Shown: positions 1,673 to 25,571 of the stretch, piece after piece
Position numbering within the stretch: position 1 is the stretch's first letter
Layout: every line of letters begins with the position of its first letter
IMG/VR virus record: IMGVR_UViG_3300017773_002300
Span: 1-26,098 of that record
DNA length: 26,098 nucleotides
Direction: 5' to 3' (one strand)
Origin: a virus
Program-made: the position numbers and the translations under genes
Notes under the pieces: model-generated
The model's input: only the letters and a program-made list of their open reading frames with translations
Told to the model about the DNA's origin: nothing
Database searches by the model: none

Positions 1673-1711
1673 ATTATAACAAAATTTTAAGGATTTGTCA
1701 AGAATTATTTT
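1673..1711 (-). promoter_or_regulatory. Sigma-70-type promoter P1 for primase-polymerase
   Basis: Reading the minus strand, a box AAAATAATTC (1711-1702) is followed by TTGACA (1701-1696), 17 bases, and TATAAT (1678-1673). The primase ATG begins 10 bases after the -10 hexamer. The -35 hexamer contains the TGA stop of the upstream DapF-like gene. Member of a family of nine similar promoters in the window. Confidence 0.85.
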
Positions 1712-2192
1712 CCGCCTCCATAGTCCATCTGTAATAATCTTTTTCTATTTTATACTTTCCGCCTCTGCAATATACATCCACGATGGTACTATCAGTAAAC
1801 AGAGCCGCACTAGCAGCTCCTGTTCCACAGCTAGGTACATATCCTACGCCTTTTTCCCATATGTCTACAAATATACTGCCATCATATAAGTCATGTACCA
1901 TAATTTGATTTTCATCTAACTGAGTGTCTATTGTTTCTACCCAGTTATGTTGTATTATTTTTGTATCTCTAGTTATTTCTATTGTGTTTGGTTTATTTAT
2001 TATTGGAGCTAGAAAAGTAATCTTACCATGTTCTGCTAACTCAGCATTAAAACATACTTCTGCAGTACTACCATCGATATTCCATATCTGACCTGTATTT
2101 ATATTTTTCCATTGACAATAATCTATTTGATGTAAAGGATTAGTGTCTGCTAGAATTATAACTTGCCCGTTAACTTTGACTTGTGTTTCCAC
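1698..2192 (-). CDS. Miniature diaminopimelate epimerase (DapF)-like protein
   Basis: 164 aa. Two segments resemble the active site of DapF, which interconverts LL- and meso-diaminopimelate with two cysteines. Residues 39-47 (IDGSTAEVC, C47) match the NADGSxxxxC region, and 110-127 (DIWEKGVGYVPSCGTGAA, C122) match the WERGaGeTxaCGTGA motif. The C-terminal YCRGGKYKI and WTMEAE match the end of DapF. Normal DapF is about 275 aa, so the region between the cysteines is cut from about 144 to 75 residues, and the GNG after the first cysteine is lost (CFNA). Activity and substrate are unknown; binding without catalysis, or action on another amino acid, is possible. GTG start with GGAG ten bases upstream; overlaps the ParB-like gene by 37 bp. 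Its TGA stop lies in the -35 box of P1. Confidence 0.6.
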   Translation of the reverse strand: METQVKVNGQVIILADTNPLHQIDYCQWKNINTGQIWNIDGSTAEVCFNAELAEHGKITFLAPIINKPNTIEITRDTKIIQHNWVETIDTQLDENQIMVHDLYDGSIFVDIWEKGVGYVPSCGTGAASAALFTDSTIVDVYCRGGKYKIEKDYYRWTMEAENNS

Positions 2193-2638
2193 TCTAGTTC
2201 ATCTCCTAATGCTTCATGTTCTAAAAATGTTGGGTCGTCTTCATAATACATTGACTTCCATACTAATTCTGCCATTTGAAACCAAACAGCAATTGCTTTG
2301 TTTCTAAAATCTTCATCACCCCATAAGTAATATAGTAGCCAGTACTCTTTATCAAATCTACATATTCTTATTTCTCTATCATGTAGTTCAGGAACTTCAG
2401 TCAATGCCCTTAGTCTTTGACTACCTGCTATGGGGTACCAGTTTGGCATACATAAAAAAGGAGACCGTATGCCTTCTTTTTTCAATGCTTCTTTTAGTGG
2501 TTCATTTATTGGTACATCTTTAATATTCTCTTGTACTTTTGGTTGCTCCAACATCCAACCCACTGTTCTCACATACCAAGTATGTGGCGGAAGTGGTACT
2601 AGTTCTGCTGTTTCTCTACTTACTCTGTCATTTGCCAT
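2156..2638 (-). CDS. ParB/sulfiredoxin-fold-like protein
   Basis: 160 aa. Residues about 40-82 carry the pattern of a ParB-like N-terminal domain: a VPINEPLKEALKKEG segment, IRSPFL, then IAGSQRLRAL, which resembles the GxHRrLRA nucleotide-binding motif. The C-terminal half has no recognisable domain and is rich in Trp and Tyr. No helix-turn-helix as in partition ParB is seen, so a role in plasmid-like partition is unlikely. Phage ParB-like domains may be nucleases or nucleotide-binding enzymes. The start ATG lies inside the end of the sulfotransferase gene (19-bp overlap). Confidence 0.5.
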   Translation of the reverse strand: MANDRVSRETAELVPLPPHTWYVRTVGWMLEQPKVQENIKDVPINEPLKEALKKEGIRSPFLCMPNWYPIAGSQRLRALTEVPELHDREIRICRFDKEYWLLYYLWGDEDFRNKAIAVWFQMAELVWKSMYYEDDPTFLEHEALGDELEWKHKSKLTGKL

Positions 2639-3300
2639 CTTTCAAAATCCTTTTTATAAAATTCATATATTAACTCCGTTACATAATTTTCATCATACGG
2701 AGGTATTGTTCTATTAGAGTTATGCAAATGTCTTACTGGAAAACCCATTGCTTTCATGCATCCACCTTCCTCTAGTTTGTAAACTTTTACTTCGGGTTCT
2801 CTATAATAAACCCATGCTGGTAGATACATTATGTGATAACTACCTAATCTTACTTCACTTTTTTCGAAGTAATCTAAATTTTGTACTGTTCCATAGTAAG
2901 CGCCGTTCATTAATGAACTAATAGCTTTCTCACTCCATGTTACAAAATCCCAATCAATTATAAAATTATAATTATAATTGTGCTTGTAAAGACTCTCCCA
3001 TCTTTTTAGTGGGTGTCTTATCTGTGTAAAGTACTCATAGTCTGGGTACTGTACTGCGAGTTGGTCATAAGTTGCGTGTATATTATTGTAAGAAAACTTA
3101 CGAATAGGATATCCTGCTACTTTAGGATAGTCTTCTCTAACAAAATCTGCATTTAATCTGCCTTGCCAACTCCTATGTAACATTTGTCTTTTTGGATTAT
3201 TTTCCAAACTATAGTAATGTTCTGCAATAGTTTTACTTACAGATATGCCCCCGCACTTGGGAATATGTATAAACCCTTTATTCTCCTGATGTATGAGCAT
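2620..3300 (-). CDS. Sulfotransferase-like protein
   Basis: 226 aa, normal for small phage and bacterial sulfotransferases, which move sulfate from PAPS to a carbohydrate or other acceptor. The 5'-phosphosulfate loop is HIPKCGGISVSKT near residues 12-24. The 3'-phosphate motif is IRHPLKRWESLYKHNY near residues 93-108. The acceptor cannot be predicted; surface glycans of host or virion are plausible. The ATG overlaps the end of a 58-aa gene by 23 bp, and its 3' end overlaps the ParB-like gene, so it sits inside one long operon running from P2. Confidence 0.75.
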   Translation of the reverse strand: MLIHQENKGFIHIPKCGGISVSKTIAEHYYSLENNPKRQMLHRSWQGRLNADFVREDYPKVAGYPIRKFSYNNIHATYDQLAVQYPDYEYFTQIRHPLKRWESLYKHNYNYNFIIDWDFVTWSEKAISSLMNGAYYGTVQNLDYFEKSEVRLGSYHIMYLPAWVYYREPEVKVYKLEEGGCMKAMGFPVRHLHNSNRTIPPYDENYVTELIYEFYKKDFERWQMTE

Positions 3301-3454
3301 CTAATAAATCCTCCATAGCTTCCTCATAAATAGGTCTAAAATCTTCTAGTGTAGGAAACTCTATTTTTATTGCGCTTTCTACATTACTGTAGGCAAGTTC
3401 GGCACAGTGTATATGCCATGCTTCTTCTAATTGTTTTTCTGTGTATAGTATCAT
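3278..3454 (-). CDS. Small acidic hypothetical protein (58 aa)
   Basis: Short frame starting MILYTEKQLEEAWHIH and ending LLDAHTSGE. It is acidic and probably helical, with no recognised domain. It is supported by context: its ATG overlaps the stop of the 56-aa gene upstream (ATGA) and its end overlaps the sulfotransferase start by 23 bp, which fills a stretch that would otherwise be an unexplained gap in a compact operon. Function unknown. Confidence 0.65.
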   Translation of the reverse strand: MILYTEKQLEEAWHIHCAELAYSNVESAIKIEFPTLEDFRPIYEEAMEDLLDAHTSGE

Positions 3455-3621
3455 GTTATGTCCTTAAATATTTGTAATACTTTTTTTCTATTATACCAAA
3501 GACCATTTAATATTATTTCATCTCTAGTCTTTGAATTTTCTATTATCCATCTAGGTAAACCTACTACATTCTTATCTTTAAATAGTCTCCAACCTTCTTT
3601 TGCTGCAATGATTACTCTCAT
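3451..3621 (-). CDS. Small basic hypothetical protein (56 aa)
   Basis: Starts MRVIIAAKEGWRLF and ends KKVLQIFKDIT. It is basic and Trp-rich, with no recognised domain. The ATG overlaps the stop of the 2OG-oxygenase-like gene (ATGA) and its own stop overlaps the start of the 58-aa gene (ATGA). Both junctions are the stop-start couplings used throughout this operon, which supports a real gene. Function unknown. Confidence 0.65.
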   Translation of the reverse strand: MRVIIAAKEGWRLFKDKNVVGLPRWIIENSKTRDEIILNGLWYNRKKVLQIFKDIT

Positions 3622-4124
3622 TTTCTTTTCCTAAAATTCATAGATATAGCTATTCTTCTGCCTTTTGTTTTAGGAACTTTATGTTCTAAAACTCCTTGCC
3701 AAATAACTAACATCCCATTGTAAGGGTGTATTTCTAACTGCTCTTCAAAGATAATTGGACTAGCATTTGTGTCTACATCTACATAATAAACACTAGAAAA
3801 ATCACAAGGAAAATGATTATGAGGTTGAGCATACTCCTCTTTTTCATATATCATAGCCCATAGATTAACAGGAAAATATTTTATTGGTCTAGGGTTAAAA
3901 TGTTCTTGACTTATTGATTCAACATATCTTGTTACTTCATTTGCAAAAGGCATAAATTCAGGGTTGTCTTTATGTGTAGACCATCCACTTCTCCATGCTT
4001 TAACATTAGTTACCATTTCTTTTCCATCTAATAGTCGTTGCTTTTCAACTATTGTTTTTAAGTTCCACTTATCTTTAAGGATAGTAGTAAATACAGGCAT
4101 TGATTTGTTAACATTATAAATCAT
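3618..4124 (-). CDS. 2OG-Fe(II) oxygenase-like protein (PF13759 type)
   Basis: 168 aa. The C-terminal half has the pattern of the putative 2OG-Fe(II) oxygenase family common in marine phages: YAQPHNHFPCDFSSVYYVD (iron ligands H102 or H104), a PIIFEEQ strand, IWQGVLEHKVP (distal H148), and RRIAISMNF, where R156/R157 would bind 2-oxoglutarate. The substrate (protein or nucleic acid) is unknown. The start overlaps the helicase end by 11 bp. Confidence 0.75.
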   Translation of the reverse strand: MIYNVNKSMPVFTTILKDKWNLKTIVEKQRLLDGKEMVTNVKAWRSGWSTHKDNPEFMPFANEVTRYVESISQEHFNPRPIKYFPVNLWAMIYEKEEYAQPHNHFPCDFSSVYYVDVDTNASPIIFEEQLEIHPYNGMLVIWQGVLEHKVPKTKGRRIAISMNFRKRK

Positions 4125-5472
4125 AAGTATCTTCGCCTGTTGTCATAGTTTCTTTTAGTTCTGTTCGTTCATCTGGGTCTAAGGCACTATGAGGCCCAAT
4201 CTTTAGTGTTTCCCAGTTCATTTCTGATGTAAAGTTTTTTACTGAACCACTTCTCATCTTATCACATTTGAACTTAATCGTAGGCTCTTCGTCTCCCCAA
4301 TGCTGTATGCTATAAGCTGCATCTACAGCATCCAAGATTCCTTTCGCGAATCTTGCCTCTCCTTTCTCATTAGTCTGGAAAGCGGAGAGAACCAGAACTT
4401 TGCTCTCCTGCGCGAGAGCTTTGAGACCTTTTGAAATCTCAATTTGCTCAGTCCAATCATACTGACCTGAACGACCTGGTGCGTTGTGGCGTCTCACTTG
4501 GTTTAGATAATCTACTATTACTACACCCAAGTTTGGTAACTGGGCTTGTTTCTGTCTAACTACACTAATAATTTTTGCTAGTGTAAGTGACGGGTCATAA
4601 TGAACATCAATTTGAGGGATATCTGCCAGCTTGTTTCTAGTAAGCTCGTAATGGAACTTATCGAAATCTTGGTGGTCTTTCCACTCAGCTAGCGCCTCTT
4701 CGCCATTGTTAAACCTAGCAGCCCACCAAACAGCAACTTTGTCCCACTCCATAGGAGTAAGATTTTTTGCTTTGATACGACCACTATTTATTCCACATTG
4801 TATGCCACAAATTCTTTGTAACATTTGTCTTGTGTCCATCTCTATAGTAAAGTATAATGCTGATGCGCCTCTATCTTGGGCTGCTGCAGCAATGTTACAA
4901 CAAGTAAACGACTTACCACCACCACGGTGTCCGCCAAAAACTACCAAATCTTTGGGAGAGAATGTGTAGTCCAAGTCATAGTCTTGATTAAGACCGAGCG
5001 GCAAATATTTTGCTAAATCCTCATCTGAATCGAACAAAGGTACAGTTTCCATGTTATCTGCATCTTCATTAGTATCTACTGCGTCTTCCACATGGACGAC
5101 TATTTCTTGCAGTAAATCAATATTTTCTCTAGCGTCAGAGATTGCGACTTGTGTGTCAACATAGTGTTCGATTTTATTTAGAATTTCGGATTGTGTAAAC
5201 TGATTTTTTAGATAGTCTAATAGAATTATAGACGGAACATCTGTTTCTACACTTTCGATTGCATAGATTTTTTCCTGCAAGTCCCTTGAACGAACTTCCA
5301 GTTTTAAATCTTCAAATGTTGGCAAGTCATGATACTTATGAACATGCTTATCTACTACTCGCCATATTTTTCGGTACTCACCTTCTGGAAAATAGTGTTC
5401 CTTAAGACCATTCCAAGTCTCAAAGTCGCTGTTCGCAAGTAATTGCTTGAGTAATGCACTCTCTAGTGTCAA
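4114..5472 (-). CDS. DnaB-type replicative DNA helicase
   Basis: 452 aa hexameric 5'-3' helicase of the phage fork. The RecA-like core has Walker A GGHRGGGKS (180-188, K187), the H1a glutamate in YFTIEM (E211), Walker B VVIVDYLNQV (D321) and LSAFQ (362-366) at the sensor position. Residues 1-130 are an N-terminal helical domain. It starts with TTG, preceded by GGGAGAG; no ATG occurs in frame for more than 130 codons, so TTG is the only start that keeps the N-terminal domain. An intrinsic terminator (5503-5538) lies just upstream with no promoter between, so expression depends on read-through from P2. Confidence 0.93.
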   Translation of the reverse strand: MTLESALLKQLLANSDFETWNGLKEHYFPEGEYRKIWRVVDKHVHKYHDLPTFEDLKLEVRSRDLQEKIYAIESVETDVPSIILLDYLKNQFTQSEILNKIEHYVDTQVAISDARENIDLLQEIVVHVEDAVDTNEDADNMETVPLFDSDEDLAKYLPLGLNQDYDLDYTFSPKDLVVFGGHRGGGKSFTCCNIAAAAQDRGASALYFTIEMDTRQMLQRICGIQCGINSGRIKAKNLTPMEWDKVAVWWAARFNNGEEALAEWKDHQDFDKFHYELTRNKLADIPQIDVHYDPSLTLAKIISVVRQKQAQLPNLGVVIVDYLNQVRRHNAPGRSGQYDWTEQIEISKGLKALAQESKVLVLSAFQTNEKGEARFAKGILDAVDAAYSIQHWGDEEPTIKFKCDKMRSGSVKNFTSEMNWETLKIGPHSALDPDERTELKETMTTGEDTYDL

Positions 5473-5502
5473 ATTGTCTCTCCCAAAACAAAGTTAATTT
5501 AC

Positions 5503-5538
5503 AAAAAAGGCGAGGCAATCCTAAGGGACTGCTCGCCT
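5503..5538 (-). terminator. Intrinsic terminator after the HTH-repeat gene
   Basis: On the minus strand AGGCGAGCA and TGCCTCGCCT form a 9-bp GC-rich stem with one bulged base around a 12-base loop, followed directly by TTTTTT. It lies 16 bases after the stop of the HTH-repeat gene and 31 bases before the helicase start. No promoter is visible between it and the helicase, so it probably terminates only partly. Confidence 0.85.
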
Positions 5539-5553
5539 GAGTTAGAAATAAGA

Positions 5554-6270
5554 TTAACCTATTTCTTTTTTAGCAGCGCCGTTATAGTCCGCGCATTGTA
5601 GACCTCTTCTAGTAAGCATTGTTTTCACGCCTCTTACAGTTTTGCCGATATTATCAGCAATTTCTTCAACAGTCATGCCGTCAATGTCGACACCTGCTAA
5701 TGGGTCAGCTTTGCTTGAACCTTTAGTTTCTTTCTGCTTTGGAATAGCATTGATTTCGCCTGCTCTAAGTAGGGATAATGCTTTTCCTCTGATTGAGTTA
5801 ACGCTTCTGCCTAAGCCTTCTGCGATATCCTCAATGAAAGCTCCATCGTTTACCATTGAAACGAATTGGCTTTCTTCTTCCTCGTTATAAGACTTAACAG
5901 TCTCAACTTTAGGAGCAGGTTTAACATGCTCTGTAAGTTGCATAGAAAGAATTTTACCTTGAATAGATTTAGCACTGAAGTGCCCACCTTCAAAGTTTGA
6001 AGCGATTTCTGCGTATGTGTAGACACCGCTATTGTCTTGCACGAATGTGCTAAGAGTTGCTTCTTGCTCATCTGAGAAAGATTTAGTTGCTGAAGCTGAA
6101 GCTAATTCAACCTCAAAACCCATCTTTCTTAATTTTGAACTAACACTTCTTACTGAAGTTTCTAGTTGCTCTGCAGCAGAAGCTACAGTTGCCTGTGATA
6201 CAGGGCTTTCGTCACCAACGAAAGAAGTCAATTCTGCTGTTCTTTCGTCTGTCCATTTTGGTAATGCCAT
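5554..6270 (-). CDS. DNA-binding protein with four HTH/SANT-like repeats
   Basis: 238 aa, no named family recognised. Four related modules are visible: residues 6-53 (starting WTDERTAEL), 64-115 (SFSDEQEATL), 127-172 (SYNEEEESQF) and about 198-226 (MTVEEIADNIGKTVRGVKTML). Each ends in a helix-turn-helix pattern such as IAEGLGRSVNSIRGKALSL. Similar modules occur in the proteins at 14568-15008 and 25578-25745. Role inferred as a double-stranded DNA-binding regulator or genome-coating protein. ATG with GAGGA upstream, one base after the ligase fragment stop. The terminator just downstream would make it more abundant than the later genes of the operon. Confidence 0.7.
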   Translation of the reverse strand: MALPKWTDERTAELTSFVGDESPVSQATVASAAEQLETSVRSVSSKLRKMGFEVELASASATKSFSDEQEATLSTFVQDNSGVYTYAEIASNFEGGHFSAKSIQGKILSMQLTEHVKPAPKVETVKSYNEEEESQFVSMVNDGAFIEDIAEGLGRSVNSIRGKALSLLRAGEINAIPKQKETKGSSKADPLAGVDIDGMTVEEIADNIGKTVRGVKTMLTRRGLQCADYNGAAKKEIG

Positions 6271-6271
6271 T

Positions 6272-7030
6272 TTAATTTTCCTCTAATAATTGCTTTACAT
6301 TTGTTATAATAATAACACCTCGGTCACGAGCTGTTTGTGTTTTAGCTGACTCAATTCCCGACTCATTTATAAGATGAGTACAGTCTTTTGTTAGCGAGGA
6401 CTTGACTACAAATCCATATTGATTTAGAACTTTTTCAGCAAATGCTTTAGTCGGATATGACTTCAACTTGCCTGTAATACAAACAACTCCTGTGACCGCT
6501 TTCTTCTCATTAATTTCATTATTCCAGTTGAACGGTAGTGTTGTCTTATAGTTGTTAGGATAATACTCAGTTTCTAACCACTGAATTAAGTTAGCTGATG
6601 CCTTTGGTCCGATACCTGCCTCAGTACAACTTTTCTCGCTAATATCTTCGATGTTTGATATTCTATCGCATAATTTTTGAGAAGCCGACCGACCAATAAG
6701 GGGTATGCTGAAAGCTGGTATTATATTGACCAACTCACTCTCTTTTGATTTTTCAATCTCTAAAAAGAGTTTCTCAGCTAACTTCGTACTTCCTAACCTA
6801 ACCTGTATATCATCTACAGTAAGTTGATAAAGTTCTGTGTAGTCTTCGATTTGCAACTTGTTAAGAGTTGCTGGACCGAGTCCTTTAATTTTAAGAGTCG
6901 AGGCAAAGTGTTCTACTTTCTTATACCACTGAGCTGAGCACTGTGTATTCCTACAAAATAGTTGGTCATTAACCAATTCTAATTCACTGTTACATGCAGG
7001 GCAGTCAGTTGGTGGTATAATCTGTCTCAC
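6272..7030 (-). CDS. NAD-dependent DNA ligase, C-terminal part (zinc finger, HhH, BRCT)
   Basis: 252 aa matching the C-terminal third of bacterial LigA. It has a C4 zinc finger C10-x2-C13-x12-C26-x4-C31 ending CSAQ, the HFAS and IKGLGPATL helix-hairpin-helix region, a second HhH stretch (about 107-150), and a BRCT domain from about 180 to the end (VTGVVCITGKL, then THLI and the ARDRGV segment). The adenylation and OB domains are absent here but are encoded at 12894-13835, starting about 5.9 kb upstream in the reading direction. The two proteins probably form one ligase. GTG start with GGAGAGAGAG upstream and about 25 bases of leader from P2. Confidence 0.88.
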   Translation of the reverse strand: MRQIIPPTDCPACNSELELVNDQLFCRNTQCSAQWYKKVEHFASTLKIKGLGPATLNKLQIEDYTELYQLTVDDIQVRLGSTKLAEKLFLEIEKSKESELVNIIPAFSIPLIGRSASQKLCDRISNIEDISEKSCTEAGIGPKASANLIQWLETEYYPNNYKTTLPFNWNNEINEKKAVTGVVCITGKLKSYPTKAFAEKVLNQYGFVVKSSLTKDCTHLINESGIESAKTQTARDRGVIIITNVKQLLEEN

Positions 7031-7060
7031 TTATAGTCTCTCTCTCCAAAATATACATAT

Positions 7061-7099
7061 ATTATATCCAATTTTTAAGCTCGTGTCAAGAACTATTTT
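7061..7099 (-). promoter_or_regulatory. Sigma-70-type promoter P2 for ligase C-part and helicase operon
   Basis: Minus strand: AAAATAGTTC (7099-7090), TTGACA (7089-7084), 17 bases, TATAAT (7066-7061). The expected start site gives a leader of about 25 bases containing GGAGAGAGAG before the GTG of the ligase C-terminal part. It would drive the 5.3-kb operon down to 1698. Confidence 0.88.
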
Positions 7100-7132
7100 T
7101 GACATGGTATATCAAAGAAAAAATAACCAATA

Positions 7133-7246
7133 TTAATTATCCTCCCCTTCATAGATATGGGTGTCCTCAACCATATTTCTGTTTTCCCATTGAAATCTAA
7201 GTGCTTGCCACTTCTTAACTAAAAATTTTATCCAATTCTTTATCAT
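7133..7246 (-). CDS. Small basic hypothetical protein (37 aa)
   Basis: Begins MIKNWIKFLVKKWQALRF and ends HIYEGEDN: a basic, amphipathic N-terminal helix with an acidic tail. The ATG lies inside the end of the SGNH gene, with AAGGA five bases upstream, and the frame ends just before promoter P2. No known domain. It is supported only by the ribosome binding site and the tight packing. Last gene of the long operon that starts at P3. Confidence 0.5.
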   Translation of the reverse strand: MIKNWIKFLVKKWQALRFQWENRNMVEDTHIYEGEDN

Positions 7247-7964
7247 ATATGTCCTTCATTATTCTATTTGCCATTAACTCATGTCCTTCCTCTAGAGGAT
7301 GGTCTTTCGGTCCGAATGGCACCTTGGCTCTCTTACACATAGTATAAAAGCTTTCATCCATTATGAAAGGTAATTCTCTTTCATAGTCATTTCTTCTCAT
7401 ATGTGGTACTTGCCATAAATTATTTGCTCCTTCCCATCTATTTTCATCTAGGATTTTCATTGAAGGGCCGAGCTGCCCATCTGACATAAGATAAAATAAG
7501 TAAGGTATCTTTTGAGATTCCAAAAAATACTTTGTACTTAACATATAGTGTAAACTATAAATTATATTATATCTCATTGTTCTTGTTTGTGTGGAATGTC
7601 CTTGTATTGCTTCCCACTGTTTTAATCTCATTCTAGGGTGAAAATGTGTTTCACTCTTATCACTAATTTCTAAAGTATTTTTATTAAAAGCATATCTTAT
7701 CCATACTGCACTTCTCCATGCCCCTAAGTCATCTAAGAACTCCCATCTATTTAGGTTAGACCATACAATAATTGCTAGGTCTGGTTTCTCTCTTAAACAA
7801 TCATCTAGAGTTGTTCTCCATATTCTATCATTACTTCCTCCAACCTTAGAGTTATCTCTGTAATCTGCATCTAAATTTTTAGATACTTTATATGCAAAAG
7901 AGTCCTCTGGTCTATTCTTTAGTTCCATTCCTCTAACAAAGCTACAACCATTCCAATAAATCAA
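7215..7964 (-). CDS. SGNH/GDSL-like hydrolase
   Basis: 249 aa. Block I is NGCSFVRG with S8 as likely nucleophile, block II/III is VGGSNDR (G42, N45), and block V is KDHPLEEGHE with D221 and H222. This order fits SGNH hydrolases such as esterases and glycan O-acetylesterases; phage members of this kind are mostly uncharacterised. It follows a carbamoyltransferase, so removing or shaping acyl groups on a glycan or modified base is plausible. TTG start overlapping the carbamoyltransferase stop (TTGA), with GGAG ten bases upstream. Confidence 0.7.
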   Translation of the reverse strand: MIYWNGCSFVRGMELKNRPEDSFAYKVSKNLDADYRDNSKVGGSNDRIWRTTLDDCLREKPDLAIIVWSNLNRWEFLDDLGAWRSAVWIRYAFNKNTLEISDKSETHFHPRMRLKQWEAIQGHSTQTRTMRYNIIYSLHYMLSTKYFLESQKIPYLFYLMSDGQLGPSMKILDENRWEGANNLWQVPHMRRNDYERELPFIMDESFYTMCKRAKVPFGPKDHPLEEGHELMANRIMKDIYDKELDKIFS

Positions 7965-13841: not shown

Positions 13842-13880
13842 ATTATACAGAATTTTTAAGGATTTGTCAAGTACTATTTT
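13842..13880 (-). promoter_or_regulatory. Sigma-70-type promoter P3 for ligase N-part and accessory cassette
   Basis: Minus strand: AAAATAGTAC (13880-13871), TTGACA (13870-13865), 17 bases, TATAAT (13847-13842). Six bases (ATTCTT) separate TATAAT from the ATG of the ligase fragment, so transcription should begin at or within a base or two of the start codon. The spacer begins with the same AATCCTTAAAA as P1. Confidence 0.88.
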
Positions 13881-13886
13881 TTGGAG

Positions 13887-14522: not shown

Positions 14523-14554
14523 AAAAAATTGCAGAGGGCGTTGCCACCCTCCAC
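14523..14554 (-). terminator. Intrinsic terminator after the HTH gene
   Basis: On the minus strand GTGGAGGGT pairs with GCCCTCTGC (nine pairs including three G-T wobbles) around a six-base loop, followed by AATTTTTT. It lies 13 bases after the stop of the HTH gene at 14568. No promoter is visible in the 77 bases between it and the next gene, so read-through is expected. Confidence 0.78.
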
Positions 14555-14567
14555 AGTTCAGGGGTAA

Positions 14568-15008: not shown

Positions 15009-15036
15009 ATTGACTTCTTTCCATTAATATAAATAT

Positions 15037-15075
15037 ATTATATCCGAATTTTGAGTTCGAGTCAAGAACTATTTT
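15037..15075 (-). promoter_or_regulatory. Sigma-70-type promoter P4 for the HTH/PC4 operon
   Basis: Minus strand: AAAATAGTTC (15075-15066), TTGACT (15065-15060), 17 bases, TATAAT (15042-15037). The box follows directly after the TAA of the upstream sulfotransferase-like gene. This promoter leaves a normal leader of about 22 bases before the ATG at 15008, so it is not of the leaderless type. Confidence 0.88.
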
Positions 15076-15420
15076 TTAGAGTCTATAGCCGTAGGTTTCT
15101 ATATCTTTGTGATACATTAGGTATACTAAACTTTTAGTCTTTAATGTATACCATCTATCCCACATGGGAGTGATTTCTATAGATGACAAAATGGATGTAT
15201 CTTTTGGATGTAGGTTTTTGAATTTTAATTCTTCTTCCCATGCTTCCAATCTGACCAAGTGGTCACACTCTTGATACATTTCTGTTTGTAACTGTAAGGG
15301 ATTTTCTTTTACCCAAACATCTAAACCTATGTAATTTAAACTTAAAAAGTATTCTGAAACAACTCTTTCATAAGGATTTCTTATAATACCTATAGTTTCA
15401 TTTTCGTAGTTTAGTATCAT
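15076..15420 (-). CDS. Truncated sulfotransferase-like protein
   Basis: 114 aa. IGIIRNPYERVVSEYF near residues 11-26 is the 3'-phosphate-binding motif of sulfotransferases, and LVYLMYHKDIETYGYRL fits their C-terminal end. The N-terminal PAPS loop (as HIPKCGG in the 2620-3300 gene) is missing: the ATG is only 10 codons before the second motif. It may be a remnant, or part of a two-chain enzyme. Its ATG overlaps the stop of the 41-aa coiled-coil gene. Last gene of the P5 operon. Confidence 0.6.
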   Translation of the reverse strand: MILNYENETIGIIRNPYERVVSEYFLSLNYIGLDVWVKENPLQLQTEMYQECDHLVRLEAWEEELKFKNLHPKDTSILSSIEITPMWDRWYTLKTKSLVYLMYHKDIETYGYRL

Positions 15421-15989: not shown

Positions 15990-16019
15990 GTGTTTTCCTT
16001 TTTTTACTTTCGTACTTGA

Positions 16020-18547: not shown

Positions 18548-18700
18548 TTATCTCCAGCACTTATATTCATTACACTCGCCTGTTTTGTAGTCTACCATCT
18601 CACCACAAAACTCGCAGTCATCCCAATACCAAGTCTCGAAGGACTTTGTTTCTGAGTTCCACATTTGACAAGTCTTTTTGTTTGTTGTATTTTCATTCAT
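18548..18700 (-). CDS. Cys-rich zinc-ribbon-like small protein (50 aa)
   Basis: Starts MNENTTNKKTCQMWNSE. Cysteines at 11, 29, 32, 43 and 48, with C29-EF-C32, suggest a zinc ribbon. The ATG lies 6 bases after TATAAT of P5, without a Shine-Dalgarno, so a leaderless mRNA is predicted. It is the first gene of the P5 operon and ends directly at the ATG of the 198-aa gene. Function unknown, perhaps regulatory. Confidence 0.7.
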   Translation of the reverse strand: MNENTTNKKTCQMWNSETKSFETWYWDDCEFCGEMVDYKTGECNEYKCWR

Positions 18701-18706
18701 ATGTAT

Positions 18707-18745
18707 ATTATACTAAAAATTATCACTGCTGTCAAGAACTATTTT
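18707..18745 (-). promoter_or_regulatory. Sigma-70-type promoter P5 for the small-protein operon
   Basis: Minus strand: AAAATAGTTC (18745-18736), TTGACA (18735-18730), 17 bases, TATAAT (18712-18707), then six bases (ATACAT) to the ATG of the 50-aa gene. The -35 hexamer contains the TGA stop of the 42-aa gene. Confidence 0.9.
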
Positions 18746-18860
18746 TTGATTCATGGCAATACGGACATTTCTGCCCAAGAGCAACGAAAACAGTTTGCTT
18801 TCTAACCTTGCAGAAATGCTTCCACATGGTTTCGCCCCAGGACAGATATATCTTTATCAT
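18732..18860 (-). CDS. Small basic CxxC protein (42 aa)
   Basis: Starts MIKIYLSWGETMWKHFCKVR and ends CPYCHESKNSS. A C32-PY-C35 pair with H36 suggests metal binding, perhaps with C17. The ATG overlaps the stop of the membrane protein (ATGA). Its last codons AAT AGT TCT TGA are the conserved upstream box and -35 element of P5. An internal ATG at residue 12 is also possible. Function unknown. Confidence 0.55.
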   Translation of the reverse strand: MIKIYLSWGETMWKHFCKVRKQTVFVALGQKCPYCHESKNSS

Positions 18861-19225: not shown

Positions 19226-19234
19226 AGTTTTCTC

Positions 19235-19927: not shown

Positions 19928-20772
19928 TTGATTCCTCCTATCATTTTTACTATTTTATTATACCTCCAATACACTTCCATAATATCTTGTCTGTTATGGG
20001 AGGCTTTAGCATGGGGGTTATACTTTGGGTGCCAAGGTTGATAACTTAACGCTGTAAGATGCACCTGCCATATTTCATCTAATGGTAACTGTACTTTCTT
20101 AAAATTTGTTGTTCTTTTCTTATGTCCTTTTACTTCTGGTTCGTAAAAAGCAGAAGTATCCGAGCCATCAAAACTATTCCATCTACAGTCTAATTCTTGA
20201 ACTATTTTTGATGATTCTTTTCTATGTGGCGACCCTATCTTCTCCATAAAATACCATTTGTAAGTTCCATTCCATTGTGCTTGCACACTTATTGGGTCAA
20301 TCCAGTCTTTTGCTTTTTCACAGTCTATTAACATAACACTATCACACCACCAACCTCTTGCGTGTTCTGTATCCTGCCACTTTTTATCATTCATTTGTAA
20401 ACTATCCCAAACCATGCCAAAAGGTTTGCCTTTTAAATTAGTTTTCCATAGATGGTAAATATCTCTAAAATTTATCATATCTACATCTGTGTAAATTGCT
20501 CTGCCTTTAAACCCACATAGTTCTGGTATTGCATATCTAAAGCAAGTAAATGGTGTTCCCCATCCTTTTCTTTTCCAGTCAGGAAACATACTAGGTCTTA
20601 GAAATGTAACTTCTACTGGATGGTCTGTATTCTTAAATATACTATACAAATAGATTGATTCTATTGTCGGTTCTTCATGTTCACTTGTTCCTATAAACAG
20701 TCTTATAGGTTCCTCATCGCTAGGTCTTCTGCTTAGACCTTTCTTAAAGATACCTGTTTCTTCATTACTCAT
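19924..20772 (-). CDS. Glycosyltransferase, family 8-like (GT-A)
   Basis: 282 aa from the chosen ATG. The N-terminal RLFIGTSEHEEP, then FTCFRYAIPEL, and RAIYTDVDM with a DxD motif (D96, D98) show a GT-A fold like family 8 enzymes. W-rich segments (ARGWWCDSVMLIDC, then IWQVHLTALSY) fit the acceptor region. It probably adds a sugar to a host or virion glycan. An ATG five codons earlier (20787) is less likely: the chosen one overlaps the upstream stop as ATGAGTAA, as at other junctions. Confidence 0.7.
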   Translation of the reverse strand: MSNEETGIFKKGLSRRPSDEEPIRLFIGTSEHEEPTIESIYLYSIFKNTDHPVEVTFLRPSMFPDWKRKGWGTPFTCFRYAIPELCGFKGRAIYTDVDMINFRDIYHLWKTNLKGKPFGMVWDSLQMNDKKWQDTEHARGWWCDSVMLIDCEKAKDWIDPISVQAQWNGTYKWYFMEKIGSPHRKESSKIVQELDCRWNSFDGSDTSAFYEPEVKGHKKRTTNFKKVQLPLDEIWQVHLTALSYQPWHPKYNPHAKASHNRQDIMEVYWRYNKIVKMIGGIK

Positions 20773-21295
20773 CGTGATGCCTGACATAAGCTATCAAATC
20801 TCCTTTTACTAAATGGGCGTTCATATTCCAGATATTACCTGTGCTAATATGTTCGCCCTCAAATCTCATATTAAGTGTGTTCTTTTTAAAATCATATAAA
20901 CCATACTCAGTTACTTCTAGCATTTGAGTTAATGTTGTATAATCTTTACCTACAATTATTGGAATCTTTCCCTTTTCTGCTCTTAAAACATAAATTTGGT
21001 CTCTCTTTTTAATTATGTTTGGTAGCATAAAACCTTTTTCTGTGGGTCTTACTATCACTAGCTTTTCTATCTGCTCTTTGAATGAACCATGTATACTAAT
21101 ATCTTCTAATACTGTGCGTCCATGCTCTCTCCAATAAGGAAAAGTACAGTTATATGTTTCCATTCTTTTTTCAGGTGTAAACTCATGCCACATTAAAAAA
21201 GTATCACACCAAGGAAACTGACTATCTCGTTGTCCATCCATCCATTTATCTACTTCTGCCCCTAGTTTTGCTAAACTTTTTGGTAACTCTACCAT
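20765..21295 (-). CDS. Hypothetical protein (176 aa)
   Basis: Starts MVELPKSLAKLGAEVDKWMD. No domain recognised; the C-terminal half is predicted beta-rich (EKLVIVRPTEKGFMLPNI, then KGKIPIIVGKDY). The frame stays open upstream to a GTG at 21346, but the ATG at 21295 has GAGGAG upstream and overlaps the previous stop (ATGGTAG). It lies between a 2OG oxygenase and a glycosyltransferase gene. Function unknown. Confidence 0.6.
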   Translation of the reverse strand: MVELPKSLAKLGAEVDKWMDGQRDSQFPWCDTFLMWHEFTPEKRMETYNCTFPYWREHGRTVLEDISIHGSFKEQIEKLVIVRPTEKGFMLPNIIKKRDQIYVLRAEKGKIPIIVGKDYTTLTQMLEVTEYGLYDFKKNTLNMRFEGEHISTGNIWNMNAHLVKGDLIAYVRHHDE

Positions 21296-21960
21296 ACTTG
21301 TGATTCTCCTCGTATAAACCCTACTAATACATCTCTCTTGCCCCACTCTAACGGTGTGCTTTCATGCAAGTGAAAAGATGTGAATATTATTAAACTTCCT
21401 TTGTCTTTCATTGTTTTAAATTTGTGTCTAAATTCCGATTGAGGCATATCACTTATTAGTCCTTCAAACTTGGGGTTACTTAAAATATCAGGTCTACTAT
21501 ATGTTTCTGCTACTTCTAAGTTACCACCCCCATAATCTAAAGGGCTACTCAATTGTATACTTAAACTTATCTTTCGCATAGATACTCTATTCTTTATCAT
21601 ATCTAGCGTTGGTCTGCAATCTCTGTGTGCAGTAAAAAATTGTCCTTTCTTTTTGTATCTTATAAAGTTAAACTCATGCTGTGGTCTTAAATGGTATAAC
21701 TTAAAATTATATGTTTTATTATTATAAAACTCTACAGCTTTGTATATCTTTTCATACAAACTTTGTGTTATATCACATTGCCATATTCTATCACAATCTC
21801 GTAAGTCAAGGTCAATACCTCGATATCGAGTTCCAGCTGGTTTAAATTGTTTTGTTTGGATTCGGTAAAATTCATCTATCTCTTTGTTTGATAGGAAATT
21901 AGGTATGTGACCACATATGTCTGAGGGATTATTTTTGTCCTGACTGATTTCTAATCTCAT
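21289..21960 (-). CDS. 2OG-Fe(II) oxygenase, prolyl 4-hydroxylase/PKHD-like
   Basis: 223 aa. FNFIRYKKKGQFFTAHRDC holds iron ligands H112-x-D114. RKISLSIQLSSPLDYGGGNL is the typical strand with the YxGGxL motif. IIFTSFHLHESTPLEWGKRD provides the distal histidine (H197 or H199) and R209 for 2-oxoglutarate. All key residues are present, so an active hydroxylase is likely. Substrate unknown. The ATG overlaps the end of the 87-aa gene by 32 bp. Confidence 0.85.
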   Translation of the reverse strand: MRLEISQDKNNPSDICGHIPNFLSNKEIDEFYRIQTKQFKPAGTRYRGIDLDLRDCDRIWQCDITQSLYEKIYKAVEFYNNKTYNFKLYHLRPQHEFNFIRYKKKGQFFTAHRDCRPTLDMIKNRVSMRKISLSIQLSSPLDYGGGNLEVAETYSRPDILSNPKFEGLISDMPQSEFRHKFKTMKDKGSLIIFTSFHLHESTPLEWGKRDVLVGFIRGESQVW

Positions 21961-22192
21961 CTTTTACCATTTGTTTGATTGTTTCTAATAATCTGGGGTA
22001 GCTTTCAAATTCTTCTATATCTTTTGAAGGGTGTGCTATATTTTCTAAAGCTACCACCCTATCTTCAAGTTCTTCCAACCACTCTTCGTTTTCTTCAAAT
22101 CTTGCTTGTGCTGGTTCGTGGTTGTCAAACCAATCAGCGTGTTTTTGCATATCCCTTTTCCAGAATAGCATTTGAAGAAACTGTTTAAACAT
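21929..22192 (-). CDS. Small charged helical protein (87 aa)
   Basis: Starts MFKQFLQMLFWKRDMQKHAD. A hydrophobic N-terminal helix is followed by an acidic coiled coil (ENEEWLEELEDRVVALENIA). No domain recognised. The ATG at 22192 overlaps the upstream stop by 8 bp (ATGTTTAA), which fits the other junctions; a TTG six codons earlier is less likely. Function unknown. Confidence 0.6.
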   Translation of the reverse strand: MFKQFLQMLFWKRDMQKHADWFDNHEPAQARFEENEEWLEELEDRVVALENIAHPSKDIEEFESYPRLLETIKQMVKDEIRNQSGQK

Positions 22193-22805
22193 TTTTAATG
22201 AATTGTTCAAGGTTTTCGAACGCTTCGTTGTATGTATTTTTTATTGATATGTCCATTACAAATCTAGGAGTATCTCCCATGTTTCTATCACTCATCCAAG
22301 TAGTAGAGCCGTCAAGCTCTCCTATTAAGCAAGTCCAGTCTTTTGTATCTGCTGGTCTATGCCTATCGGTAATCTTTGTTCTTTTACCATCTTTAATATA
22401 ATTTGTAAATCCATGTCCACTATTGTGTATAAATTTTACAAATTTTCTTGGTTTATCACCACCATTATGCCAACCTGTCCACCCTGTTGCTGGGGGTTGA
22501 AATAATATTGTATCGTAATAGAACTTACCTAACACTTCTCCCATTGCCATATCGTTTATAGCTCCAATCAAAGCTCCTGTTAATTGCTTATATCTAGCTG
22601 TTGCTGTTCTACCTACCCAATCTACACTATTACTTACTTCAGGATGTCCACTAAAATTAGGGTTATCTAAATACTGTCGTAAATCTTCTACTGATGTTTT
22701 TGGTAATGGGTGGTGTTTCCACTTATGAGGTAGTCTATAAAACTCCTCAGCTATACTATCTAATCTAGTTATTAATGCTCTTTTCTTTATCGGAATTGCT
22801 TTCAT
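22185..22805 (-). CDS. Conserved phage protein, possible cupin/2OG-like fold
   Basis: 206 aa. GWTGWHNGGDKPRKFVKFIH, then GELDGSTTWMSD and RFVMDISI give a pattern like a double-stranded beta-helix with W-H-N-G-G-D as first metal site. The distal histidine is not clear, so an oxygenase is only a possibility. The N-terminal 80 residues are helical. The ATG overlaps the end of the o-spanin-like gene by 41 bp. Lies just after the lysis genes. Confidence 0.5.
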   Translation of the reverse strand: MKAIPIKKRALITRLDSIAEEFYRLPHKWKHHPLPKTSVEDLRQYLDNPNFSGHPEVSNSVDWVGRTATARYKQLTGALIGAINDMAMGEVLGKFYYDTILFQPPATGWTGWHNGGDKPRKFVKFIHNSGHGFTNYIKDGKRTKITDRHRPADTKDWTCLIGELDGSTTWMSDRNMGDTPRFVMDISIKNTYNEAFENLEQFIKNV

Positions 22806-23172
22806 CGGTCGTAACCTCTCTGTAGTAAACTACTACATCTTTGAGTTCGGTAATATACCTTTTTAACTCTTGCATATTATATGCCATTGTTTCATAATCA
22901 GGAATAGTCATAGCAAGGAATACTAGCTCTCCCTCTTGTTCTTCTATAACTGCAAACTGTTCTTCGAAGTTTTCTGGTGTAATAGTTAACCACATGACTT
23001 CTTTTAAGTCTATCTCACGAGGCATGATAGGTTGAACTATCGTTCTCTCGATTGGTTTTGCTACTACCTCTATTTGTTTAGTTGGTATTAGGCTGCAGTT
23101 GGAGACCATCGTCAAGGTCATCAACAATAACGCTGAGTGCTTCGATGTCTTCCATAATGTGTTTTGTTCCAT
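22765..23172 (-). CDS. Outer-membrane spanin subunit-like lipoprotein (o-spanin)
   Basis: 135 aa. A basic N-terminus is followed by the hydrophobic segment SALLLMTLTMVSNC and a probable lipobox cysteine C26 (Asn at -1 is unusual), then a Pro-containing stretch typical of Rz1-like proteins. The gene overlaps the inner-membrane partner by 95 bp in another frame, the classic Rz/Rz1 arrangement. It would join the outer membrane to the i-spanin and fuse the membranes at lysis. At 135 aa it is longer than most Rz1 proteins. Confidence 0.6.
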   Translation of the reverse strand: MEQNTLWKTSKHSALLLMTLTMVSNCSLIPTKQIEVVAKPIERTIVQPIMPREIDLKEVMWLTITPENFEEQFAVIEEQEGELVFLAMTIPDYETMAYNMQELKRYITELKDVVVYYREVTTDESNSDKEKSINN

Positions 23173-23473
23173 TGTTTATCTTCCTTTGCATATCAACTGG
23201 GTCGCCTATTATTTTGGCAGTCAGTTCATAATTTCTTATAAATTCTGAATATCTATTCAGTTCTCTTTGAGCAGCTTGACTTTTTATAGTCATTTCTTGT
23301 AGTTGCTCTGTCTGTAATTTAAAGTCATTAGTCATTACATCTAATGCTTCTTGTTGGGTAGCTACTGCTCCCTCTAGTGCCATGTTATTTGCTTTTAAGG
23401 TTATATTTTCTTGGTATAACCAATATCCACCTAGTCCTAGCACTATAATTATTCCTATTAAAAATTGGTTCAT
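23078..23473 (-). CDS. Inner-membrane spanin subunit-like protein (i-spanin)
   Basis: 131 aa. An N-terminal TM segment (FLIGIIIVLGLGGYWLY, residues 4-20) is followed by a long periplasmic coiled coil (NITLKANNMALEGAVATQQE and onward), the topology of Rz. It lies downstream of the lysozyme gene and overlaps the o-spanin-like gene. The ATG overlaps the stop of the 86-aa gene (ATGA). The assignment rests on topology and position, not on sequence similarity. Confidence 0.65.
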   Translation of the reverse strand: MNQFLIGIIIVLGLGGYWLYQENITLKANNMALEGAVATQQEALDVMTNDFKLQTEQLQEMTIKSQAAQRELNRYSEFIRNYELTAKIIGDPVDMQRKINNGTKHIMEDIEALSVIVDDLDDGLQLQPNTN

Positions 23474-23730
23474 AATTGTGTTATCCTGTAGTTAAGTCCT
23501 TCTGCTCCTCGTATTTCTACTAACTCATCATCATCTGTCGTAAAGGATATAAACTTATCTTGTTTCTTGTGGAATTTTTTTACTACATATTCCTTATCAT
23601 CTGAATCTCCCCATATTTGATTATAACTTATTTTTAAGCTATATCTAGGAAAGAAATAATACTTTACACTTAAGTAAGTATCTATGAAGAATTCTTTTAC
23701 TATTACTAAGAATTGTTTTACTCTGTCCAT
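23470..23730 (-). CDS. Conserved hypothetical phage protein (86 aa)
   Basis: Starts MDRVKQFLVIVKEFFIDTYL. A hydrophobic N-terminal helix is followed by a basic, Tyr-rich stretch (KYYFFPRYSLKISYN), then a beta-rich domain (DKFISFTTDDDELVEIRGAE). It sits between lysozyme and the spanin pair and may be membrane-associated. Overlaps the end of the lysozyme gene by 13 bp. A lysis role is suggested only by position. Confidence 0.6.
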   Translation of the reverse strand: MDRVKQFLVIVKEFFIDTYLSVKYYFFPRYSLKISYNQIWGDSDDKEYVVKKFHKKQDKFISFTTDDDELVEIRGAEGLNYRITQL

Positions 23731-24158
23731 TCTCCACCTTCAAACATTATTGCTTCAGCTTCTCGTCTACGAGTTAATCCCTCTAAGACTTTTCCACCTG
23801 CTTTGTTCCATCTTTTGATTTGATTAGGCACATCAGGATAATCTCCTGCATTTAACCTTTTTAGTAATGTAGATGCTTCTAAATTTGCTGAGCCGAGATT
23901 GTATACCCATGAAACTAAGGCATCAAACTGGTTTTGTGATAATGGGCAAGTGACTAAATTATTAATGTAACCTTCATACTCGTGTAATTCTACTTCTAGC
24001 ATATGGTCAGCATGGTCTTCACTCCATTCATCTCCAGGTTGCACATCTTTTGTGTGTCCATACCCGATTGTCCATACTCCTGCAGGACATTTATATGCTT
24101 TTAGCACACAGCCCTCAAAGTGTTTAATTAAGTCTATTCCATATTGTGATGTTTTCAT
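23718..24158 (-). CDS. Phage lysozyme/endolysin (GH24, T4-lysozyme family)
   Basis: 146 aa muramidase that cuts peptidoglycan at lysis. Catalytic E15 is in HFEG, C24 stands where T4 lysozyme has D20, and T30 in WTIGYGHT completes an E-C-T triad; Cys at this position is common in phage endolysins. The rest fits the family (LSQNQFDALVSWVYNLGSA, then RRREAEAIMF). No signal peptide. The frame stays open to 24197, but the ATG at 24158 follows TTAGGAG by five bases, while the earlier ATG lies within a hairpin stem, so 24158 is chosen. Confidence 0.92.
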   Translation of the reverse strand: MKTSQYGIDLIKHFEGCVLKAYKCPAGVWTIGYGHTKDVQPGDEWSEDHADHMLEVELHEYEGYINNLVTCPLSQNQFDALVSWVYNLGSANLEASTLLKRLNAGDYPDVPNQIKRWNKAGGKVLEGLTRRREAEAIMFEGGEWTE

Positions 24159-24172
24159 ACTTGCTCCTAAGC

Positions 24173-24198
24173 AATGGGGTGGCTTGAACCACCCCATT
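24173..24198 (-). repeat. Perfect 10-bp hairpin upstream of lysozyme
   Basis: AATGGGGTGG and CCACCCCATT flank a six-base loop. In the minus-strand RNA the hairpin ends four bases before the AGGAG ribosome site of lysozyme. No T-run follows on either strand, so it is not a standard terminator. It may protect or process the mRNA, or act on lysozyme translation. Confidence 0.75.
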
Positions 24199-24210
24199 AT
24201 CGTTGACAGT

Positions 24211-24342
24211 CTATGTAAGATAAGAAATGTTTATTCCGATTATGCTAGCACCAAAACTTAATAAAAAGATTTGATTGACAGCTTCGCAGAACTCTCCATT
24301 CTCACATATTGTATCACGAACTTTGATAGCGATTGCTTTCAT
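24211..24342 (-). CDS. Small membrane-like peptide (43 aa)
   Basis: Starts MKAIAIKVRDTICENGEFCE, followed by a hydrophobic segment (IFLLSFGASIIGINISYL) that could cross the membrane once. The ATG lies one base after the Hsp20 stop (TAAAATG), so translation is coupled. Directly before lysozyme, it could be a small holin or antiholin, but one TM and no family similarity make this weak. Confidence 0.5.
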   Translation of the reverse strand: MKAIAIKVRDTICENGEFCEAVNQIFLLSFGASIIGINISYLT

Positions 24343-24343
24343 T

Positions 24344-24724
24344 TTAGTTTATCTCCAAGATTTTCCTCTTAGAATCTGGAGTTCGTGATAAGTTGATTGT
24401 CAGTAATCCGTCTTGTAGATTTACTTTGTCTACTAATAGGTCGGCATTTAGAATAAATCTTCGTTCAAAAGATTTTAGACTAAGACCCTGATGAATAAAC
24501 TCTTCATCATCACCTAGTTTGTGTTCTTTTTTACCCTTGATTTGGAGTTCTTTGTTATCAAAAACTATCTCCAATTCTTCTTTTTTCCAACCTGGCACTG
24601 CGATTTCTATACGATAACCATCGCGCCCTGTTATTAAGTTATATCTCGGATATGCTGTGTCCGTATAAGACGGCAATGTAGGCATATCCAATCCAAGCCA
24701 AAATTTACTTAAATCTATACTCAT
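24344..24724 (-). CDS. Small heat shock protein Hsp20 (alpha-crystallin domain, IbpA-like)
   Basis: 126 aa ATP-independent chaperone that holds unfolded proteins. The alpha-crystallin domain spans about residues 27-115: YPRYNLITGRDGYRIEIAVP, then ELEIVFDNKELQIKGKK, GLSLKSFERRFIL and DGLLTINLSR. The C-terminal ILEI is the I-x-I type motif. Phage Hsp20 genes are known in marine cyanophages and pelagiphages, where a role in virion assembly has been suggested. GGAG lies nine bases before the ATG. It is the first gene after P6, with an 86-base structured leader. Confidence 0.92.
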   Translation of the reverse strand: MSIDLSKFWLGLDMPTLPSYTDTAYPRYNLITGRDGYRIEIAVPGWKKEELEIVFDNKELQIKGKKEHKLGDDEEFIHQGLSLKSFERRFILNADLLVDKVNLQDGLLTINLSRTPDSKRKILEIN

Positions 24725-24810
24725 TTTTTATCTCCATAATTCCTTTTCAGTAAATATTTACATCTCCTTTCGGTAGATGCACCAATACGCAAGTGAAACC
24801 TATCACTTAC
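24725..24810 (-). promoter_or_regulatory. Structured 5' leader of hsp20
   Basis: In the predicted minus-strand RNA the leader starts with a hairpin AAGTGA/TCACTT (24808-24791). It continues with CATCT-A-CC-GAAA-GG-AGATG (24779-24761), a stem closed by a GAAA tetraloop that covers an AGGAG, and the palindrome GTAAATATTTAC (24761-24750). A possible 10-codon leader ORF starts at ATGGAG just before the hsp20 ATG. A temperature-sensing role is only a guess. Confidence 0.45.
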
Positions 24811-24816
24811 AAAATA

Positions 24817-24855
24817 ATTATATCAAATTTTTAACTTGAAGTCAAGAACTATTTT
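24817..24855 (-). promoter_or_regulatory. Sigma-70-type promoter P6 for hsp20/lysis operon
   Basis: Minus strand: AAAATAGTTC (24855-24846), TTGACT (24845-24840), 17 bases, TATAAT (24822-24817). The stop TAG of the 48-aa gene lies in the upstream box. Unlike most of its family it precedes a long leader (about 86 bases). Confidence 0.9.
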
Positions 24856-24995
24856 TCGGAGTCATCGAAAGTAAGTAATCCTTCTTCTTCCAAATAGTCT
24901 ATCGTGCCTCGTATTCCTATTTGCTTTCCACCAAAATAGCAGAACGCACAGGATAAAATTAAAAATATTAAATAGCTTATGTCATTTTCATTCAT
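24849..24995 (-). CDS. Small single-TM membrane peptide (48 aa)
   Basis: Starts MNENDISYLIFLILSCAFCY, giving one TM segment (residues 7-22), then an acidic cytoplasmic-type tail (TIDYLEEEGLLTFDDSEK). The ATG is 6 bases after TATAAT of P7, with no ribosome site, so it is predicted leaderless. Its first bases ATGAATGAAAAT match those of the 50-aa gene at 18700. It could act on the host membrane early in infection; function unknown. Confidence 0.65.
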   Translation of the reverse strand: MNENDISYLIFLILSCAFCYFGGKQIGIRGTIDYLEEEGLLTFDDSEK

Positions 24996-25001
24996 ATACA
25001 T

Positions 25002-25030
25002 ATTATAGCAACTTTATAACCTGAAGTCAA
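25002..25030 (-). promoter_or_regulatory. Sigma-70-type promoter P7 (divergent, minus strand)
   Basis: Minus strand: TTGACT (25030-25025), 17 bases, TATAAT (25007-25002), six bases to the ATG. It lacks the AAATAGTTC box of the other eight; instead GGTATAAATTTACC (25044-25031), with GGTA/TACC ends, lies directly upstream. Divergent from P8, whose -35 starts 32 bp away. Confidence 0.82.
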
Positions 25031-25051
25031 GGTAAATTTATACCGTAACTT

Positions 25052-25090
25052 AAAATAGTTCTTGACAGTTCCTTAAAATCTTGATATACT
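25052..25090 (+). promoter_or_regulatory. Sigma-70-type promoter P8 (plus strand)
   Basis: AAAATAGTTC (25052-25061), TTGACA (25062-25067), 17 bases, TATACT (25085-25090), then six bases to the ATG at 25097. Same box and spacer core (CCTTAAAA) as P1 and P3. The short gap predicts a leaderless mRNA. Confidence 0.88.
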
Positions 25091-25096
25091 ATATGT

Positions 25097-25546
25097 ATGA
25101 AATATAAAAGAGCAGTAGAATTATTAGAAAAAGTATTTGATGAACTTCCAGACAATATCGAACTAACTAAAGGTGGTCTGGGAGAGTTAGCGTTAGCACA
25201 TCATTTAGAACACAATCTTGTGGATGGGGACAAAGGTGCTGATGCAGAATACAATGGTAAACTCTTTGAGTATAAAGTATCTACGACTAACACTTTTAAT
25301 TTTCATTTTGGAACTAGAAAGAAAGTAGAAGGCACATGGCAAGATACTATTCTTAACAAGTTCTCAAATGTTGCAGGGGCTTACTGTGCAAATAGAGTCG
25401 GTATGAAAATTACAGAAGTAGCATATTGTCCCTGCGACATACTTGTGCCGTATCTTATACAGCACTTCGAAAGAACCACAGGTCAACAACTTAACAAGTC
25501 TTTTAGCATGAACACTTTCAGAAAGCTAATAGAAAATAGTTCTTGA
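25097..25546 (+). CDS. PD-(D/E)XK nuclease-like protein
   Basis: 149 aa. The pattern GGLGELALAHHL (E30), GADAEYNGKLFEYK with D49, E58 and K60 is that of a PD-(D/E)XK endonuclease core: helix with Glu, then D-x8-E-x-K. CPCDILVPYL may be a later core strand. It may degrade host DNA or act in recombination; a named restriction family could not be assigned. Predicted leaderless from P8. Its last codons (AAT AGT TCT TGA) are the box and -35 of P9. Confidence 0.6.
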   Translation: MKYKRAVELLEKVFDELPDNIELTKGGLGELALAHHLEHNLVDGDKGADAEYNGKLFEYKVSTTNTFNFHFGTRKKVEGTWQDTILNKFSNVAGAYCANRVGMKITEVAYCPCDILVPYLIQHFERTTGQQLNKSFSMNTFRKLIENSS

Positions 25547-25571
25547 CTTTTAACTCAAATTCGATTATAAT
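25533..25571 (+). promoter_or_regulatory. Sigma-70-type promoter P9 for HTH protein and bS21
   Basis: AAAATAGTTC (25533-25542), TTGACT (25543-25548), 17 bases, TATAAT (25566-25571), six bases (ATACCT) to the ATG at 25578. The TGA stop of the upstream gene (25544-25546) is inside the -35 hexamer. Confidence 0.9.

Follow-up and report, generated by a model that had tools for sequence, protein, structure and literature searches.

Gene content of the window

The window, by which we mean the whole stretch of DNA analysed, is an entire IMG/VR virus record of 26,098 bases; relatives were used for searches beyond it. Comparison with PHROGs and with phage T5 identified a split NAD ligase (subunits A and B), a D5-like regulator, a DnaB-like helicase and a primase, along with D3, D2, Hsp20 and a partial DNA polymerase. 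T5 gene order is kept for D6, primase, polymerase, D2, D3, D5 and the split NAD ligase and, with promoters (P) included, reads D2-P-D3-P-ligA-P-ligB-D5-D6-P-primase-pol-D10-P-D11. Three long related contigs continue this order to D10-D15 on one side and carry terminase, portal, capsid, and tail genes in the other half. The shared gene order, together with the structural genes in the other half of these contigs, shows the window to be that half of a marine T5-like phage in which the early and replication genes lie. Isolate phages gave no megablast match to the window, and the best isolate identity in LigA and D5 was ~45-50%. Downstream of the last promoter, at 25578-25962 on the plus strand, lie two overlapping short open reading frames (ORFs) of 55 and 74 aa, the first of them D5-like, which are possibly a single gene broken by a frameshift.

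Table 1. Predicted promoters and the D5-like gene in the window
Feature	Coordinates	Strand	Details
T5-type promoter, box AAAATAATTC, TTGACA, 17, TATAAT	1673..1712	-	Predicted +1 1666; 4-nt leader; primase ATG 1662
D5-like multi-HTH DNA-binding regulator	5554..6270	-	phrog_323; 49% identical to T5 D5
T5-type promoter with AAAAATAGTTC	7061..7100	-	Shine-Dalgarno-led, 24-nt leader; GTG 7030; ligase subunit B, then D5-like regulator
T5-type promoter with AAAAATAGTAC	13842..13881	-	Ligase subunit A, ATG at predicted +1 (13835); predicted leaderless
T5-type promoter with AAAAATAGTTC	15037..15076	-	22-nt leader; D3 homologue ATG 15008
T5-type promoter with AAAAATAGTTC	18707..18746	-	Small ORF 18548-18700, ATG at predicted +1; predicted leaderless
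Promoter with AAAAATAGTTC, T-type discriminator TATTTT	24817..24856	-	86-nt structured leader, then Hsp20 gene ATG 24724
Promoter with partial box AAATTTACC	25002..25041	-	ATG 24995 at predicted +1; predicted leaderless; divergent from 25062
Promoter with AAAATAGTTC, -10 TATACT	25051..25090	+	ORF 25097-25546, ATG at predicted +1; predicted leaderless
T5-type promoter with AAAATAGTTC	25532..25571	+	D5-like HTH ORF 25578-25745, ATG at predicted +1; predicted leaderless

Nine sites form a single promoter family

The pattern TTGACW-N17-TATAMT matches the window exactly nine times—at 1673, 7061, 13842, 15037, 18707, 24817, and 25002 on the minus strand and at 25062 and 25543 on the plus strand—against a mean of 0.02 matches in shuffled sequence, where 0/100 shuffles reached nine. 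The -35 element is TTGACA in five sites and TTGACT in four, and the -10 element is TATACT once, at 25062. In eight of the nine, a box of the form AAATARTWC abuts the -35 on its upstream side (AAATAGTTC in six sites, AAATAATTC at 1673, and AAATAGTAC at 13842); the ninth, at 25002, has only the partial box AAATTTACC. A CTTAAAA-like centre is found in the spacer of seven sites and is weak at 18707 and 25543. An initial annotation of this sequence had described all of these components, namely nine promoters, a box directly upstream of the -35 in eight, and a common spacer centre in most, and its proposal of a shared element of ~40 bp holds as a single promoter family across the phage, far above chance.

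Taken alone, the box is mildly enriched in the window (20 matches with at most one mismatch, against 12.7 expected), and the rarity resides in the joined element. Exact copies nonetheless cluster at promoters, where six of the seven in the window are found (0.62 expected overall under a second-order Markov model), and the box is not equally common at random positions; equal frequency there would have spoken against the initial annotation.

The element marks a clade of uncultured relatives

To describe the element beyond the window, we used a clade set comprising 80 loci selected by LigA protein similarity alone, long stretches of three of their records, and the window itself, and built a logo from 95 non-redundant TTGAC-N18-TATAAT sites without requiring the box. 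Upstream of the -35, this logo shows AAAA at -45 to -42 (84-95%) followed by T at -41 (93%), A at -40, R at -39, T at -38, T at -37 (78%), and C at -36 (95%); further downstream it reads TTGACA, an AAAATTT block in the spacer at -22 to -16, TATAAT, ATAYNT, and A at +1. Of the 63 sites in four sequences (the window and the three contigs), 55 have the box immediately against the -35.

The search of related phage genomes that the initial annotation had suggested recovered the composite element in 18/18 related records, with none for the reversed control. When a viral collection was scanned with the element alone, at least 120 stretches were found, T5- or window-like proteins being present in 102 of 119, and a scrambled box returned no stretches; the element alone can thus pick out contigs of an uncultured marine T5-like clade. 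A scan of a genome collection returned 100 stretches, mostly from Firmicutes and in unrelated contexts, although several marine proteobacterial stretches encode T5-like phage proteins. Some stretches carry an AAATAG...CTATTT dyad: AAATAG and CTATTTA flank mostly Firmicutes promoters (L102, L111, L135, L143, L147, L148, L157, L173, L176, and L195) as a dyad that looks like a separate operator. Finally, TTGACA-17-TATAAT is rare in 77 genomes from the order of one MAG that carries such a phage contig, with only eight sites, of which two lie on this phage contig and one on another of its contigs.

Kinship with the early promoters of T5

Comparing the logo of the 95 clade sites with that of 35 T5 sites (AY543070), we found agreement at -45 to -42, -22 to -16, -6, and +1/+2. 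Both families combine an A-tract at -45 to -42, a 17-bp spacer with an AT block, TATAAT, an AT-rich discriminator, and A followed by T from +1, and the window sites have the consensus -10 and spacer length of T5 early promoters. They also precede the same early genes as in annotated T5: the promoter at 15037 is the equivalent of N26 before D3, that at 7061 has the location of K28a before ligB, ligA has an upstream promoter in T5 as it does at 13842, and a promoter before the D11 region corresponds to P31. A site matching the 1673 promoter precedes the primase in three relatives as well. The two families differ in that T5 mostly has TTGCTT at -35 (its commonest form, not a universal one, with A at -32 in 17% of sites) and wTKYA at -41 to -37, whereas the clade has TTGACA and TARTTC. 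Because TTGACA/T stands in place of TTGCTT, we class these promoters as a variant of the T5 family; by the logos, only -41 to -36 (TARTTC) and the -35 hexamer are lineage-specific.

A blastn search with the 56-nt element consensus returned 364 phage records, mostly T5-kind Salmonella and Escherichia phages. Early promoters of Vibrio T5-like phages (VCPH, D386) are intermediate between the clade and T5, sharing an A-rich upstream block, C at -36 in most, and an AT-type discriminator, but with lower conservation, mostly TTGCNN at -35, and spacers of 17 or 18; no leaderless starts were seen in the stretches of these phages that were read. Most likely, the nine sites are the early promoters of this marine phage and homologues of N25, N26, H207, ligA, K28a, and others of T5. 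A promoter family with decades of study behind it is thereby connected to a large uncultured marine T5-like clade. T5 promoters are read by the host sigma70 RNA polymerase, and 19 of them were first identified through in vitro transcription (PMC7472727). A separate observation concerns T5.125 (AY543070 ~75647; L098 30647), which, from similarity to its marine homologue, may begin at an ATT start behind GAGGAG instead of at the annotated 75724.

The discriminator separates early-half from late-half promoters

In the three long contigs, where the 'late' half was assigned from neighbouring structural genes, the sequence after TATAAT starts with AT in 28 of 33 early-half sites versus none of 11 late-half sites, with the same box in both (Fisher 5.7e-7, a value that overstates independence given partly orthologous sites on related contigs). 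AT-rich, ATATT-like discriminators with an AT start are likewise found in eight of the nine window sites, the exception being 24817. T5 early and late promoters are reported to differ mainly in the discriminator, with ATATT in the early ones (PMC7472727). In the clade, too, timing would probably be set by the AT-rich discriminator. Neither the window nor the three related contigs yielded a homologue of gpT5.026, which in T5 is the protein associated with the discriminator effect. The comparison separates a shared feature, the upstream box, from a possible timing feature, the discriminator.

Start codons at the predicted transcription start

From the alignment with T5 promoters, we placed the predicted +1 at the seventh base after TATAAT. 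Independent support for this register comes from ten leaders of the Hsp20 kind, in which a 5' hairpin starts exactly 6 nt after TATAAT, at the same +1. An ATG falls exactly on this base at five window sites out of nine (13842, 18707, 25002, 25062, and 25543); 7061, 15037, and 24817 have leaders, and at 1673 the leader is 4 nt. Of the 95 clade sites, 36 have their ATG at the predicted +1, with 0 to 3 at adjacent offsets, in contrast to 0/34 in T5, where transcripts have Shine-Dalgarno leaders. In the case of LigA, no start codon stands between an in-frame stop and this ATG, and the alignment of the two N-termini begins at residue 1 of T5 LigA, making a translation start elsewhere unlikely.

An mRNA beginning at such an ATG would be leaderless; that is, at many genes the promoter would be fused to the start codon, with +1 as the A of ATG. 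Whereas the promoter family itself is already known from T5, this fusion is the new part, and our literature search found nothing on leaderless T5-like phages. The comparable leaderless genes of Deinococcus-Thermus also have a -10 hexamer a few bases before the ATG and no ribosome-binding site, but belong to a cellular phylum and show weak sequence dependence beyond the -10, unlike the full -35 and upstream box of this phage clade (PMC12340547). The clade offers a phage test case for a fused promoter and start codon. We offer only tentatively, as a conjecture more doubtful than the promoter assignment, that this clade, an abundant one, has fused its standard early promoter to the ATG of many early genes, including those for the ligase and the D5-like regulator, and that the resulting leaderless mRNAs may be open to 70S translation independent of a Shine-Dalgarno sequence under altered host initiation. 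Such genes might also be translated from longer transcripts that begin upstream. A different arrangement occurs in relatives at a conserved gene that precedes the D11 region and begins MLLF[DN]WN, where the ATG follows the -10 hexamer directly (plus strand; G003:96219-96247, G005:63618-63646, and G012:35235-35263). Since this ATG lies upstream of the predicted +1, the promoter could not yield an mRNA that includes it.

What the upstream box may do

We regard the box as most likely the place where the host's own RNA polymerase docks, and not as a switch. The consensus letters for the proximal subsite of UP elements reportedly go back to Estrem 1999. Scored against AAAAAARNR at -45 to -37, clade sites average 6.66 of 9, T5 sites 6.41, and background 3.89, and 79 of 95 clade sites reach at least 6 of 9, as against 14% of background. 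This proximal subsite extends from -45 to -37, and it is the C-terminal domain of the alpha subunit that binds UP subsites (PMC2613000); the clade box has the same location, is A-rich, and typically agrees with the consensus at seven of nine positions. For N25 of T5, both the A-rich sequence upstream and the spacer, which is AT-rich, have been described as UP elements (PMC12464699). On this basis, a host sigma70-type polymerase would read the promoters directly: sigma would contact the consensus TTGACA and TATAAT, the A-rich box (-45 to -37) would hold one alpha C-terminal domain, and the AAAATTT block of the spacer would assist, as in N25. The clade's TARTTC beside TTGACA would be its own version of this upstream contact region. 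Shared upstream contacts and consensus elements would make all promoters strong through one strength module, with timing set elsewhere, probably in the AT-rich discriminator; the box looks like such a shared strength element in that, unlike the discriminator, it does not differ between the halves. We put at roughly 0.78 the probability of the explanation as a whole, comprising T5-homologous early promoters, host sigma70 polymerase, a UP-type box, discriminator timing, and promoter-ATG fusion. Part of the box fits less well, as the UP consensus wants A and R where the clade has T at -41 and T at -37, and has no fixed TTC beside the -35, where C-36 reaches 95%. Conservation from -41 to -36 exceeds what a generic A/T-rich UP site needs; the strict TARTTC is left unexplained by a UP element, and a phage reader of these six bases is possible.

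The initial annotation had instead taken the box for an operator or activator site through which a phage protein, with the encoded HTH proteins as candidates, would switch the operons together; its single phage-wide family stands, but this reading of the box finds no support. Recruitment of the host polymerase by a phage activator is very improbable. Class II activators bind near -41, and the fixed, mostly gapless position of the box, centred near -41, would suit one; they are expected, however, at promoters with a poor or missing -35, and here TTGACA/T is present at all sites, with spacer and -10 already at consensus. Activators positioned near -41/-43, such as Mor, substitute for the -35 (PMC4390567), and some T5 counterparts of these promoters were identified by in vitro transcription (PMC7472727). 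Further, the A-tract and the AAAATTT spacer are features of T5 promoters, and early-half and late-half promoters carry an identical box and are separated by the discriminator.

A phage protein of the repressor or shut-off kind, such as one of the D5-like HTH proteins, that silences early promoters at the onset of replication by covering the box and the -35 would, unlike an activator, fit a consensus promoter, and could account for conservation of -41 to -36 beyond a UP element; the annotation of T5 D5 mentions both DNA binding and a part in shut-off, and the window encodes D5-like HTH proteins. We nevertheless consider it unlikely. Late-half promoters, which should escape early shut-off, have the same box; the box sequence lacks dyad symmetry; and T5 has D5 yet differs at -41 to -36. 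The D5-like regulator at 5554..6270 is the kind of candidate that the initial annotation had in mind, but nothing in the analysis indicates that it reads the box. Nor are exact copies in excess away from promoters, as dispersed (stoperator-like) operators would require: the four sequences hold 1, 2, 2, and 4 against 0.6, 2.5, 2.0, and 2.3 expected. That the ~40-bp similarity among sites reflects only shared ancestry or recent duplication of a promoter cassette, the box having no function, is hardly credible, given that there is free variation in the flanks and in some of the spacer, whereas most box positions stand at 78-95% and that the A-tract is maintained in T5 and other T5-like phages.

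A probable structured leader ahead of Hsp20

The Hsp20 mRNA leader (24724-24810, minus strand) can form a hairpin from +1 (GUAAGUG..CACUUGC) and a second hairpin capped by CCGAAAGG. It had no match in Rfam and looks like a structured RNA, to judge by a fold z-score of -4.05 and double changes in 6 of 16 pairs across ten sequences. At loci L234 and L272, a leader of the Hsp20 type precedes a different gene.
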